DNA of 57,483 nucleotides from Candidatus Bathyarchaeota archaeon (GCA_016927015.1 JAFGNM010000066.1:1-57483), one strand, 5' to 3'. Shown: positions 45,857 to 50,519, counted from the first letter of the stretch. Program-made: numbers and translations. The notes: a model not told the origin generated them from the letters alone.

Positions 45857-46207
45857 GTGAAAATCGTAACGGTATTAGGCGCCATTGCGGTAGCGGTTTT
45901 ATTCTTTTTCGGAGTAATCTTCGCTCTAGCCGCCTCAGCTGAGCCATCGCTTACTCTCACAAGATTAACTATCAGTGTTATTCTACTAGGCGTCGGCGTT
46001 GCGATAGCATACTACATAACTCGCAAGCCAAAAACTGTGATTCACCAAGTAGAATTATCTGGGCAAATGAAGGCTGCCCCGCTTAAATGCCCCAACTGCT
46101 CAGCCTCGATTGACGTGAACCAGATTAAAATAGTGTCAGGCGTTCCCTACGCCACATGTGCTTACTGCGGAAACACTTTTGAAGTAACCGAGGAGCCAAA
46201 ATGGTGA
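45857..46207 (+). CDS. two-TM protein with C-terminal zinc ribbon
   Basis: Two hydrophobic helices, then LKCPNCSASIDVNQIKIVSGVPYATCAYCGNTFEV; overlaps the next gene by 7 nt. Confidence 0.8.
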   Translation: MKIVTVLGAIAVAVLFFFGVIFALAASAEPSLTLTRLTISVILLGVGVAIAYYITRKPKTVIHQVELSGQMKAAPLKCPNCSASIDVNQIKIVSGVPYATCAYCGNTFEVTEEPKW

Positions 46208-47835
46208 AAAACCGCTTTCACCTCATAGCAATCGCATTTGCCATAGTTTTTGCTCTCGCGGCTATAAGCACCGTTAACGCGCAGGAGAGAGTCTACCACG
46301 TTGACCATGAATGGGTGAAAATCTGGATAAACCAAGACGGAACCATCGACTTATTCTACGATATGAGCCTAACGCTTGACTCTGGTCAAGAAATAAGTCG
46401 CGTGTTTATCGGGCAGCCTCAACGCGACTTCACTGTTGGCGAAGCCGTAGACCAGTACGGGCACATGTTGACTGCTTCTGACGAGAGTTCTGGAAGCGAC
46501 TACAAAGTGCAAGTTAACCTTTACGAGCCGTTAAGGGCTGGGCAAACAGCCAGATTCAACTTAACCACGAACGTGGCGCACATGGTGTGGGAAGACACGC
46601 AAAACGAGGGCAACGTGGGCATGCAGTTCACTCCAACATGGTGGGAGCAAGCAAGCGTTAACGACCTTCGCATACTGGTCGTTTTGCCCACCGGCGTAAG
46701 CAGCGACATGGTCAAAACCACTGAGGTTCTCTGGGATAACACGGTGGTTGAGGATGGTCGGTTGGGGGTTTATTGGGAAGCGCAGAATCTCAGCCCAGAC
46801 GAAAGGTACCCCGTGGGTGTTTCTTTTCCAGCTGAGTACGTGCAGAACTACGAGACGCAGCCCACGGGCGTAACAGCGTTCTTTCAAAACTACGGGTTAA
46901 TACTTTTCGCATCTGTTTTCGGCATTATTGTAATAGTTGCCGTTATCTACGCGGCACGCAAAAAATCTTACCTGTCGCCTCAGGTTAGCATGGAAACTCT
47001 TGGAGTAAAGCGTGGTTTGACAGCGGTTGAAGCGTCTTACCTGCTTGACATGAAGCCCACGCAGATCGTTACAGAAATTCTCTACAGCCTGCTGCAGAAA
47101 AGAGCCGTGTGGGTTGAATCAACTAACCCCGCGCTTAAGCTTAGAATAATGCCTTCCTTCGAAGGCAAAACGGGAACCGACGAAAACCCGCTACGTTACT
47201 ACGAGATTGACTTTCTCCACGCGTTAAAGGATGATGGCACTCTTGACGAGGGTAAACTGGCGCACACCGTCGTGTTTCTCAGGGACACCGTGGAGCAGAA
47301 GCTGCGGGGGTACAGCAGGCGCGACACAGTGGACTATTACAGGAAAATCGTGACGAAAGCTTGGACGCAAGTGGAGCAGGCAGGCACAGTTGACTTGACA
47401 TCCAAAGCCTATGACGAGCAACTGCTGTGGCTTATGCTTGACCCAGACTACCGCAACCGCACAGAAACAACCTTCCGTGACCGAGCGTTCGACCCGAGCC
47501 CGCTCTGGTTCTGGTACTGGTACGGCTACCACCATTACAATCCCCATCCCACGCACAAACCAAACATTAATGCACCATCCAAAGCTGGGAAGCCACCAAC
47601 TATTCCAGGCGCCGAGTTCGCGAACAACATAGCCACTGCCGTGGAGAAAACCTCAAGCAACATCGTAACAGACATTGAGAAATTCGCCAACGCCATAATC
47701 CCCGTGCAAACCCAGAAGGCGTCTCATGCGCCCGCCCGCAAAGAGGATGGGTGCGTCTGCGCCTGTGCCGCGTGTGCCTGTGCGTGCGCCTGTGTTTCAT
47801 GTGCGTGTGCTTGTGCAGGTGGAGGTGTCGGCTGA
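46201..47835 (+). CDS. DUF2207-like membrane protein with Cys-Ala C-terminal tail (putative radical SAM substrate)
   Basis: Signal peptide, VYHVDHEWVKIWINQDGTIDLFYDM, central TM, ending EDGCVCACAACACACACVSCACACAGGGVG. Confidence 0.88.
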   Translation: MVKNRFHLIAIAFAIVFALAAISTVNAQERVYHVDHEWVKIWINQDGTIDLFYDMSLTLDSGQEISRVFIGQPQRDFTVGEAVDQYGHMLTASDESSGSDYKVQVNLYEPLRAGQTARFNLTTNVAHMVWEDTQNEGNVGMQFTPTWWEQASVNDLRILVVLPTGVSSDMVKTTEVLWDNTVVEDGRLGVYWEAQNLSPDERYPVGVSFPAEYVQNYETQPTGVTAFFQNYGLILFASVFGIIVIVAVIYAARKKSYLSPQVSMETLGVKRGLTAVEASYLLDMKPTQIVTEILYSLLQKRAVWVESTNPALKLRIMPSFEGKTGTDENPLRYYEIDFLHALKDDGTLDEGKLAHTVVFLRDTVEQKLRGYSRRDTVDYYRKIVTKAWTQVEQAGTVDLTSKAYDEQLLWLMLDPDYRNRTETTFRDRAFDPSPLWFWYWYGYHHYNPHPTHKPNINAPSKAGKPPTIPGAEFANNIATAVEKTSSNIVTDIEKFANAIIPVQTQKASHAPARKEDGCVCACAACACACACVSCACACAGGGVG

Positions 47836-47837
47836 AC

Positions 47838-49184
47838 ATGAGTTTTCTGCGAAAAGCGCTGCAACCACCACGGGTTCCTCAGGGACGCTACACTTACCGT
47901 GGGGCGGGCGAGTTTGCGGGCATGGCGCTTCAGTTGCGCATCCAACCTGACGGGCGCGGGGTCATGGTGATAAACGCTAATACTGTGCTTCACTTGAACG
48001 AGACGGCTTCCGCTTACACCTACTACTTCATGCAGGACATGCCTGAAAGCGAGGTGCTGAAGCAGATTCGCCGCATGTACCGCGTGAACGCAGCCAAAGC
48101 GAAAGCAGACTACGAACAACTCGTTTACACGATTAGCACGCTGGCTCGAACCGAGAAAATCTGCCCAATATCTTTCCTTGAAGTGGAAAAAGAGGAGCCG
48201 TTCAGTTACCAGTATTCCGCGCCGTTACGAATGGACCTAGCGGTTACCTTCAAGTGCTCGAACAACTGCATCCACTGCTACGCCGGCGGGCCCCACGAAA
48301 CCCCCGAGCTAAACACCAGCCAATGGAAGGAGGTTATAGATCGCCTCAGCCAAATCGGCGTTTTCATCGTAACCTTCACGGGTGGCGAGCCGACGCTGCG
48401 CGAGGACCTACCGGAGCTGTTGCAGTATGCCCAGAACAAAGGCATGGTTACAGGGTTAATAACCAACGGTAGGAAGCTGAAAGACAAGGAGTACGTGAAA
48501 ACTCTGGAGAAGGCTGGCTTAGACTTTGTGCAGGTGACCCTTGAGTCGCACAAGCCTAAAATTCACGATTTGATGACCGCGGCTGAGGGAAGCTGGAAGG
48601 AAACGGTGGTTGGAATAAAAAACGCGGTGCGCTCGCAAATCTACGTGACCACGAACACCACGTTGAGCAAACATAATGCTCCAAAATTCCTGAGAACTAT
48701 TGATTACGTCAAGGAGCTTGGCGTCGCGGCTTTCGGCTGTAACAGCCTCATATACTCGGGTAAGGCAAATGCGGTCAGCCAAGAGTTCGCGTTGCCTGTT
48801 GAGGAGCTAGAGCCGCTTCTGACGAGGATACGTGATAAAGCCCAGCAGCTTAACCTAAAGTTTCTGTGGTACACGCCCACGCAGTATTGCCGTCTTGACC
48901 CTGTTCAGCTGGGTTTAGGCGTCAAATCCTGCACGGCGGCGATGATAAACATGTGTGTGGGACCAAACGGCGATGTTTACCCGTGCCAAAGCTACTTCGA
49001 AAGCCTCGGAAACATTCTCGTTGACACGTGGGAAAAAATCTGGAATCACCCTCTCGCCGTTAAGATTCGAAACAGAGAATACGTGGAGCCTAAATGCAAG
49101 GACTGCCCTCAACTGCAAGTGTGCGGCGGAGGCTGCCCCCTAGAACTGCAAGACAAACAGTACCTTTGCGGACAAACAGAATAG
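47838..49184 (+). CDS. radical SAM/SPASM peptide maturase with N-terminal PqqD-like (RRE) domain
   Basis: TFKCSNNCIHCYAGG (Cx3Cx2C), FTGGEPTLRED, SPASM CVGPNGDVYPC...CKDCPQLQVCGGGC; N-term MVINANTVLHLNETASAYTYYFMQDMPESEVLKQIRRMY is PqqD-like. ATG at 47838, GGAGGTG at 47821-47827. Confidence 0.92.
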   Translation: MSFLRKALQPPRVPQGRYTYRGAGEFAGMALQLRIQPDGRGVMVINANTVLHLNETASAYTYYFMQDMPESEVLKQIRRMYRVNAAKAKADYEQLVYTISTLARTEKICPISFLEVEKEEPFSYQYSAPLRMDLAVTFKCSNNCIHCYAGGPHETPELNTSQWKEVIDRLSQIGVFIVTFTGGEPTLREDLPELLQYAQNKGMVTGLITNGRKLKDKEYVKTLEKAGLDFVQVTLESHKPKIHDLMTAAEGSWKETVVGIKNAVRSQIYVTTNTTLSKHNAPKFLRTIDYVKELGVAAFGCNSLIYSGKANAVSQEFALPVEELEPLLTRIRDKAQQLNLKFLWYTPTQYCRLDPVQLGLGVKSCTAAMINMCVGPNGDVYPCQSYFESLGNILVDTWEKIWNHPLAVKIRNREYVEPKCKDCPQLQVCGGGCPLELQDKQYLCGQTE

Positions 49185-49274: not shown

Positions 49275-50519
49275 TTGCAGGCGGCAGACAAAAGCAAGCC
49301 ACGTCTCGTGGTCTTCGATGTTGAAGGAGTGCTGATTCCCAAAAACCGTTTTATCTTTGATGTGGGCAAAAGCCTAGGCGTTTCTCAGCTTTTGAAAATG
49401 CTTTTCATCGGCTTTCTATATGGAGCAGGCGTTGTTGCGTTGAAGTCAGCTCTGAAACGCATATTCAAGATTATGCAAGGAGTTAAAATCGAGACGCTCA
49501 TACAAATTTTCGATGACATCCCTTCGAAGCCTCAGTTGCAGAGCCTTTTTGCTCAACTTAAGATGCGCAACTGCAAAATCGCGTTAATCAGCTCAGGAAT
49601 ACCCACAGTCATCGTTGAGAAAATGGCTAGCACGTTTGGCGCAGACTACGCGGTTGGCATTGAAGTCGGCGTGAATGATGACGCGTTGACAGGTGAAATT
49701 TGGGGCGATGCCATAGAGGCTAATGGAAAACGCAAGGTTCTAACGCGAATCTTAGCTGCTGAAGGGCTGAACCTGGAAGATTGCGTGGCGGTCGCAGACG
49801 ACAGGAACAACAGTTGTATCTTCCTCTCTGGAATGCAGAAGATAGGGTACAACCCAGACTTTGTGCTGCGCGTCAAAGCTGACGCCGTTGTAACAGGCAA
49901 GCTGTCTAAAATTTTGCCGATAATTGATGGCAAACTGCAACAGCGGGCTCTGCCGTCAAAGAACGACATCCTAAGAGAGGCTATTCATGCTTCGGGCTTT
50001 TTTGTTCCAGTTCTTGCTGTTTTAGCAGGCGTTTTCCCAGTCGCGTTGATGATTTGTGTGGTAAGCTTGGTTTACTCGCTGTCTGAGCTGGCGCGGATGA
50101 ACAGAAAAAACCTGCCCGTCATATCGACGATAACTCGGAACGCTGCGTCGCCGGCAGAACTTTACGAGTTCACCGCGGCTCCCCTGTACTTCGCAGCAGG
50201 CATACTGTTGACTTTGCTGCTGTTTCCTGCGCCCGTGAACGGCGCCGCCATTGCCATATTCACTTTGGGCGACAGCACCGCCTCGCTTTTCGGAGGGCTA
50301 ATCTCGAAAAAGCCGTTGCCGTTCAACAAAGGCAAAACGTTAGAGGGCTCGCTCGCTGGGTTCTTTTTTGCTTTTTTGGCAGGCTCGTTTTTCGTGTCGC
50401 CAGTGCTGGCGTTAATTGGCGCCGCAGTCGCCATGATAATCGAGAGCCTGCCCTTGCCAGTAAACGACAACATTCTAATACCGTTAGGCACCGGCTTGGC
50501 GTTAATGCTTATAATTTAA
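49275..50519 (+). CDS. HAD-superfamily phosphatase fused to dolichol kinase/CTP-transferase-like membrane domain
   Basis: VVFDVEGVLIPKNRFIFD, ISSGIPTVIVEKMA, VAVADDRNN; C-term GDSTASLFGGLISKKPLPFNKGKTLEGSLAGFFFAFLAG. Confidence 0.8.
   Translation: MQAADKSKPRLVVFDVEGVLIPKNRFIFDVGKSLGVSQLLKMLFIGFLYGAGVVALKSALKRIFKIMQGVKIETLIQIFDDIPSKPQLQSLFAQLKMRNCKIALISSGIPTVIVEKMASTFGADYAVGIEVGVNDDALTGEIWGDAIEANGKRKVLTRILAAEGLNLEDCVAVADDRNNSCIFLSGMQKIGYNPDFVLRVKADAVVTGKLSKILPIIDGKLQQRALPSKNDILREAIHASGFFVPVLAVLAGVFPVALMICVVSLVYSLSELARMNRKNLPVISTITRNAASPAELYEFTAAPLYFAAGILLTLLLFPAPVNGAAIAIFTLGDSTASLFGGLISKKPLPFNKGKTLEGSLAGFFFAFLAGSFFVSPVLALIGAAVAMIIESLPLPVNDNILIPLGTGLALMLII

Follow-up and report, generated by a model that had tools for sequence, protein, structure and literature searches.

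Radical SAM-SPASM enzymes coupled to membrane proteins with a cysteine-alanine tail: a candidate tail-modification system of archaea and bacteria

We describe a three-gene operon (45857-49184) in a 57,483-nucleotide stretch of DNA from a Candidatus Bathyarchaeota archaeon (GCA_016927015.1, JAFGNM010000066.1:1-57483; hereafter the window), which belongs to a genome of 1.93 Mb. The operon couples a membrane protein ending in a cysteine-alanine (Cys-Ala) tail, encoded by gene 2, to a radical S-adenosylmethionine (SAM) enzyme, encoded by gene 3, with an N-terminal RiPP recognition element (RRE; RiPP, ribosomally synthesized and post-translationally modified peptide) and a SPASM domain. On balance, we favor the view that the gene 3 product is a dedicated maturase of the gene 2 tail, probably installing thioether crosslinks in it, and that the tail is kept on the membrane protein. 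The computational support for this comprises a conserved operon, a near-invariant tail, co-occurrence of tail and enzyme, the matching of tail types to enzyme clades, the RRE and SPASM architecture and a cytosolic topology of the tail.

The Cys-Ala-tailed protein and its neighbors in the window

Gene 2 (46201-47835, plus strand) encodes a 544-residue DUF2207-related membrane protein with an N-terminal signal or transmembrane (TM) segment, a β-rich ectodomain (residues 31-210), a TM helix at about 223-253, a cytosolic helical region, a disordered linker and the Cys-Ala tail. The tail, the proposed substrate, spans C518-G542 (CVCACAACACACACVSCACACAGGG; 47752-47826, plus strand), and the C-terminal end of the protein, CVCACAACACACACVSCACACAGGGVG, contains ten cysteines with the spacing CxCxCxxCxCxCxCxxCxCxC. 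Gene 3 (47838-49184, plus strand) encodes the 448-residue RRE-radical SAM-SPASM enzyme. The packing of the three open reading frames (ORFs) is as the initial annotation had it: genes 1 and 2 overlap by 7 nt, genes 2 and 3 are separated by 2 nt, and a Shine-Dalgarno-like GGAGGTG for gene 3 (47821-47827, plus strand) lies within the last tail codons of gene 2.

Tail conservation and enzyme co-occurrence in the archaeal class

The 248 genomes of the window's class were searched with the membrane protein and with the enzyme at the level of orthologues. Both are found together in 70 genomes, the protein alone in three, the enzyme alone in none and neither in 175 (Fisher p 9e-59, a value that overstates independence because genome-level counts ignore relatedness). 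Hence, no enzyme orthologue among the 70 lacks a tailed protein, and the three of the 73 protein-bearing genomes without the enzyme hold fragments: two of these are cut at contig ends and one is a short piece. The presence of the system is patchy inside families, its genes being gained or lost jointly.

Homologues with 37-85% identity keep the ten cysteines and their spacing, with mostly Ala between them; the tail noticed in the window by the initial annotation also terminates homologues of 37-67% overall identity across the class, and in one clade (L021/L088) it is shorter by one CA unit. Gene order is retained down to 37-40% identity; in other classes of the phylum it is changed, the genes still being clustered and the tail reading CACVSCACACACVSCACACASGGAG. 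The tail columns have a mean identity of 94% versus 57% elsewhere in the membrane protein, and the tail is its best-conserved 24-residue stretch (0.94; runner-up window 0.78). Pairwise codon differences within the tail number 21,651 synonymous versus 2,313 non-synonymous, about nine to one, and codon comparison indicates that the tail is under purifying selection. A chance or low-complexity artefact is ruled out by these codon statistics and by a reversed-pattern control, which gave zero CA-tail matches in the 120 genomes checked.

Two further archaeal loci deserve mention. In the Bathyarchaeia genome G036 (L061:5100-5420, minus strand), an in-frame TGA occupies the exact position of the third tail Cys codon (RCVCA-TGA-ASCACACACVSCACACAGGGAR); this is likely to be a sequencing error, as the ORF has another break near residue 130, with selenocysteine still conceivable. 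Genome G041 has a second, degenerate copy of the enzyme (L062:2125-3417) with an in-frame TAG, no CxxxCxxC motif and no tailed protein nearby, which fits the expectation for a decaying orphan.

Domain architecture and affinities of the enzyme

The gene 3 product displays an RRE at about residues 16-104, the radical SAM CxxxCxxC motif (C140, C144, C147), a TGGEP motif (181-185) and the auxiliary-cluster cysteines C351, C365, C383, C420, C423, C429 and C433. The radical SAM domain is detected by Pfam at 4e-24, and its three cysteines are invariant in 24 and in 41 sequences; the SPASM domain is detected at 6e-11, with C351 present in 39 of 41 sequences and the other six auxiliary-cluster cysteines in all 41. 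The initial annotation had also predicted an RRE at the N-terminus. The profile of this region alone matches the solved structures TfuB1 (1.3e-7) and TbiB1 (0.002), Pfam PqqD is above its cut-off in two paralogues described below, the RSAM-B clade and a pseudo-enzyme (the window enzyme itself reaching E 0.067), and the predicted model (pLDDT, the model confidence score, 91.7) has β-strands and three helices here. By profile and predicted fold, the N-terminus is confirmed as a PqqD-type RRE.

Against solved structures, the enzyme profile as a whole matches SkfB (2e-33), then PqqE, BlsE, SuiB and CteB, with the N-terminus matching the lasso-peptide RRE TfuB1. The best fold matches of the model are SkfB, SuiB and CteB, over nearly the full length, with PqqE, anSME and EpeE also among the matches. 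SkfB forms Cys to α-carbon thioethers, and in CteB an open auxiliary cluster binds a Cys of the substrate (PMC6231123). The enzyme might instead act on the tail with another chemistry: epimerization of the alternating Ala/Cys residues, dehydrogenation, Cys oxidation or C-C bond formation. Radical SAM enzymes of the same fold carry out such reactions, as illustrated by PqqE, anSME and the epimerase EpeE, and an alternating C-A pattern with invariant Ala would suit a repeat-wise backbone change. Nevertheless, the nearest matches, SkfB, SuiB and CteB, are crosslinkers, the ten spaced cysteines favor sulfur chemistry, and epimerases are usually without a SPASM domain; we thus consider a change other than a thioether rather improbable, even if it is the foremost alternative.

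Two tail types paired with two enzyme clades in Chloroflexota

Because a scan with the tail pattern (below) selects for the tail, 110 Chloroflexota genomes were searched separately with a tail-free model of the membrane protein, with the enzyme and with the tail pattern. The full membrane protein is present in 14 genomes; the same 14, and no others, carry the tail pattern, directly 3' of the protein match. Two further genomes have a shorter variant tail (L270, L271). Eleven weaker matches of the protein model are proteins with a different Cys tail, made of CHSA repeats, accompanied by a second enzyme clade: this RSAM-B clade is 31-35% identical to the RSAM-A clade. There is no crossing between the two: RSAM-A pairs with CACACACAGCACACAGGGR-type tails (16 genomes) and RSAM-B with CHSAC-repeat tails (14 genomes). 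The CHSACHSAC pattern was recovered from DNA in 14 genomes, all of them within the 15 genomes holding RSAM-B. A tail without the enzyme is seen in none of the 30 tail-bearing Chloroflexota genomes (p 6e-25).

DUF2207 proteins that carry CHSA repeats in the tail and come with a radical SAM clade of their own are exemplified by L298:5840-9272, L299, L300 and L301. The CHSAC repeat can be read as an AC-xx tetrapeptide repeat, which is reminiscent of the ACGX system (TIGR04340), a radical SAM/SPASM enzyme that takes its name from repeated AC motifs; RSAM-B scores 105 bits with this model, far below its cut-off of 400. Ordinary DUF2207 proteins, present in 86 of the 110 genomes, provide a control: among their best-scoring 30 loci neither a Cys-rich tail (0/30) nor the enzyme (0/30) was found, with several copies running off the contig such that their true tail is unseen, and most of the complete copies terminate in poly-Gly.

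Chloroflexota, Armatimonadota and Planctomycetota also have loci, L143:4275-5447 and about 34 like it, in which an additional enzyme-like gene lies after the first or close to it. Its product has an RRE and a radical SAM fold without CxxxCxxC, and PqqD is above the Pfam cut-off in the one tested; judged from its sequence, it is a pseudo-enzyme partner, paralogous to the enzyme.

Phyletic distribution

The pattern C-A-C-x-C-x-x-C-A-C-A-C-A was scanned at the DNA level in GTDB, with one genome per species (85,462 species), and matched at least 118 stretches. Among the 118 listed matches, 115 are C-terminal ends of ORFs and 113 fit the membrane-protein model. Adjacency of Cys-Ala-tailed homologues to the enzyme, which the initial annotation had put forward as a check, is borne out in 98 of the 118, where the enzyme lies within the same stretch (8 kb or less). 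For 15 of the 17 listed tail matches without an enzyme in their stretch, the whole genome was searched, and the enzyme was found in every one (E 2e-86 or better in 14 genomes, a fragment at 3e-55 in one); the remaining two, L185 and L228, run into the end of their stretch or contig. Six matches on viral contigs were rejected as not belonging to this system: they have no enzyme and no membrane-protein match.

The archaeal hosts among the listed matches include Bathyarchaeota, other Thermoproteota, the Asgard archaea Hodarchaeota, Heimdallarchaeota and Sigynarchaeota, Theionarchaea and Methanocella. The bacterial hosts include many Chloroflexota, Fermentibacterota, Aminicenantes, Krumholzibacteriota, Coatesbacteria, Zixibacteria, Armatimonadota, Planctomycetota, Hydrogenedentota and Clostridia/Bacillota; according to the genome records, cultured Anaerolineae are among them, namely Ornatilinea apprima, Leptolinea sp. 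HRD-7, Levilinea saccharolytica and Bellilinea caldifistulae. A tree of 78 enzymes largely follows the phyla (15 label changes, the minimum for 16 groups). The system therefore looks old rather than recently spread, a reading limited by paralogy and by the binning of metagenome-assembled genomes. The cross-domain alignment (A5) consists of sequences retrieved through the tail pattern and is therefore no proof that the tail is conserved; the unbiased tests are the archaeal-class and tail-free Chloroflexota searches.

Some carriers vary in layout. In L137, L200, L220, L148, L158, L160 and L211, the tail is followed by GGGRAGC or GGGGAGC and about 20-35 further residues; the tail therefore need not be the extreme C-terminus. 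These carriers, from Clostridia, Krumholzibacteriota and Aminicenantes, are short membrane proteins made up of a signal, ectodomain, TM segment and tail only.

The membrane protein, its partner and the topology of the tail

The label 'DUF2207-like' given by the initial annotation holds for the wider family more than for the window protein. The latter has no Pfam DUF2207 match at E<1, whereas eight of 28 archaeal homologues match weakly (best E 7e-4) and the CHSAC-tailed relatives exceed the cut-off of the family (PF09972). The predicted model of the membrane protein has a pLDDT of 82, with residues 504-544 disordered; a sequence search of solved structures gave nothing useful. The modelled ectodomain (window 46291-46830) resembles the β-domains found in ribophorin I/OST1 and in M1 aminopeptidases (Foldseek 3e-11, with a low TM-score over the whole chain), and there is a weak Pfam Ribophorin_I match.

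The net charge after the second TM segment is positive in 27 of 28 and in 41 of 41 homologues. By the positive-inside rule, the tail would therefore be cytosolic, as initially proposed, and so in the compartment in which a radical SAM enzyme is expected to act. The tail is itself hydrophobic (mean hydropathy 2.2), and one 19-residue window within it scores as TM-helix-like. Accordingly, one could view the Cys-Ala stretch as a membrane anchor or re-entrant segment with an incidental link to the enzyme. This we deem highly improbable: the CHSAC tails, rich in His, Ser and Asp and not hydrophobic, also pair with a sister enzyme, the co-occurrence is exact, and an anchor would have no need of an exact Cys spacing. 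No Cys-to-Leu tails were seen beside an intact enzyme.

The conserved first gene of the operon, gene 1 (45857-46207, plus strand), encodes a 116-residue protein from a GTG start, with TM helices at about 6-24 and 37-55 followed by a cytosolic CPxC...CxYC zinc ribbon and an EEPxW end. Its residues C78, C81, C101, C104 and EEP-W show no variation across 20 homologues. The constant presence of this zinc-ribbon partner in the archaeal operon would be in keeping with a tail that is an unmodified ligand of a metal or cluster, akin to a metallothionein or a metal sensor or donor, the enzyme serving a different, linked substrate; CxC-rich segments do bind Cu(I), Zn or Fe-S, and the CHSAC type has His beside Cys. 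We consider this unlikely, given that the residues between the cysteines of metallothioneins vary whereas Ala is nearly invariant in the tail, that the enzyme has a peptide-binding RRE, and that the clustered neighbors of the operon include no other recurrent substrate gene. Beyond gene 3, the window encodes a fusion-like protein (49275-50519) with an N-terminal SerB-type HAD phosphatase and a C-terminal multi-TM region.

Comparison with known systems

The closest parallels to the enzyme are SkfB, SuiB and CteB, which share with it the three-domain order, the cluster motifs, the best profile and fold matches and a Cys-rich substrate encoded adjacently. They differ in having short, cleaved and exported substrates, and their identity to the enzyme is only 16-22%. 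The small, cleaved and exported precursor of sactipeptides and ranthipeptides has no counterpart in the 544-residue protein of the window: here, the final ~25 residues of a membrane protein 320-700 residues long form the candidate substrate, with no recurrent protease or exporter recognized nearby.

The nearest precedents for the system are QhpD and the TIGR04222 tails. A protein rather than a peptide substrate is known for QhpD, a radical SAM enzyme with a SPASM domain, which forms several thioethers on cysteines of the protein subunit QhpC (PMC8172795). In QhpC, however, the bonds are Cys-to-Asp/Glu and lie in a small enzyme subunit, whereas the present Cys-Ala tail is of low complexity, has no acidic residues and belongs to a membrane protein. 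The second precedent is that of the TIGR04222 membrane proteins, whose Cys-rich tails, encoded beside MNIO (DUF692) enzymes, are proposed MNIO substrates and predicted to be periplasmic (PMC12452194). These share C-terminal Gly/Ser/Cys-rich tails on membrane proteins with the present system but involve an iron oxygenase rather than a radical SAM enzyme, a periplasmic rather than a cytosolic tail and a looser reported co-occurrence. The CHSAC-tailed sister protein approaches TIGR04222 (7e-10, 39 bits versus a cut-off of 43), and the window membrane protein has no match to it; no MNIO-like gene was identified among the recurrent neighbors, which were clustered, not annotated. Finally, DUF2207 (PF09972) proteins have the same succession of ectodomain, TM segment, cytosolic domain and low-complexity tail, but ordinary members mostly have a poly-Gly/Ser end without Cys and lack a radical SAM neighbor (30/30 loci). 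For a Streptococcus mutans mutant in a DUF2207 protein, sensitivity to acid and peroxide is reported (PMC10457818).

Proposed mechanism

The co-occurrence, the RRE and the topology tests lend good support to the claim of the initial annotation that the Cys-Ala tail is the substrate of the enzyme, and we regard this as highly likely. Chemical modification of the tail very probably takes place with the tail still on its protein, and is most likely RiPP-like. By analogy with the nearest characterized enzymes, the bond would be a thioether, an assignment that we favor with distinctly less confidence than that of the substrate. In the mechanism we envisage, the PqqD-type RRE would dock the cytosolic C-terminal region of the membrane protein, the radical SAM cluster would abstract hydrogens from residues of the tail and electrons would pass to the SPASM clusters; the Cys sulfurs would probably be joined to carbons of neighboring small residues, giving thioether crosslinks. 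No recurrent transporter, protease or second substrate was seen beyond lineage-specific neighbors in the clustered set; the tail is therefore likely to stay attached, and the modified tail would most likely form a rigid or metal-binding cytosolic appendage beside the zinc-ribbon partner.

Several observations weigh against this proposal. Acceptors that are common among known thioether RiPPs (Asp, Asn, Thr or aromatic residues) are missing from the tail, which would leave Ala, Cys or Ser for this part. The seventh, C-terminal SPASM cysteine is unconserved, any Cys after C433 being present in only 21 of 41 sequences. The enzyme is found without a detected tail in two of 32 Chloroflexota genomes: G587, and G606, where the gene (RSAM-B) lies at a contig edge. 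Furthermore, the best curated NCBIfam models are those of small-molecule enzymes, NirJ2 (157 bits) and AhbD (134 bits), followed by PqqE (114 bits, cut-off 381). These scores could point to a small-molecule radical SAM enzyme of the heme or PQQ (pyrroloquinoline quinone) type, encoded in an unrelated operon. Yet both leading scores are far under their cut-offs of 500, no NCBIfam model is reached at its cut-off, an N-terminal RRE is present, and the enzyme is almost confined to genomes with the tailed membrane protein; this possibility appears very remote, and a heme or PQQ enzyme was rejected on the cut-offs and the RRE.

Implications

We found no previous report of the system in NCBIfam, Pfam or open-access full text: the last yielded no paper on DUF2207 together with radical SAM enzymes or on the tail strings CHSACHSAC and CACACAGGGR, subscription journals and preprints being outside its scope. 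More broadly, we tentatively suggest, as a generalization about as likely to fail as to hold, that dedicated radical SAM enzymes write poly-thioether into the cytosolic tails of DUF2207/TIGR04222-type proteins, in an old and hitherto undescribed system of archaea and bacteria. It would have at least two tail codes (CA and CHSA), each with its own enzyme clade and sometimes a dead partner enzyme, and its product would remain permanently within a membrane protein, not be released as a natural product.

What is known of radical SAM peptide chemistry comes mainly from small released peptides, while the same machinery here seems to serve an integral membrane protein. The orphan membrane families DUF2207 and TIGR04222 would thereby be linked to peptide-modifying enzymes, and their low-complexity tails may be platforms for chemical modification. 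That the tail persists almost letter for letter in Bathyarchaeota, Asgard archaea, Chloroflexota and Clostridia alike implies that its role in the cell is a basic one and not that of an antibiotic.

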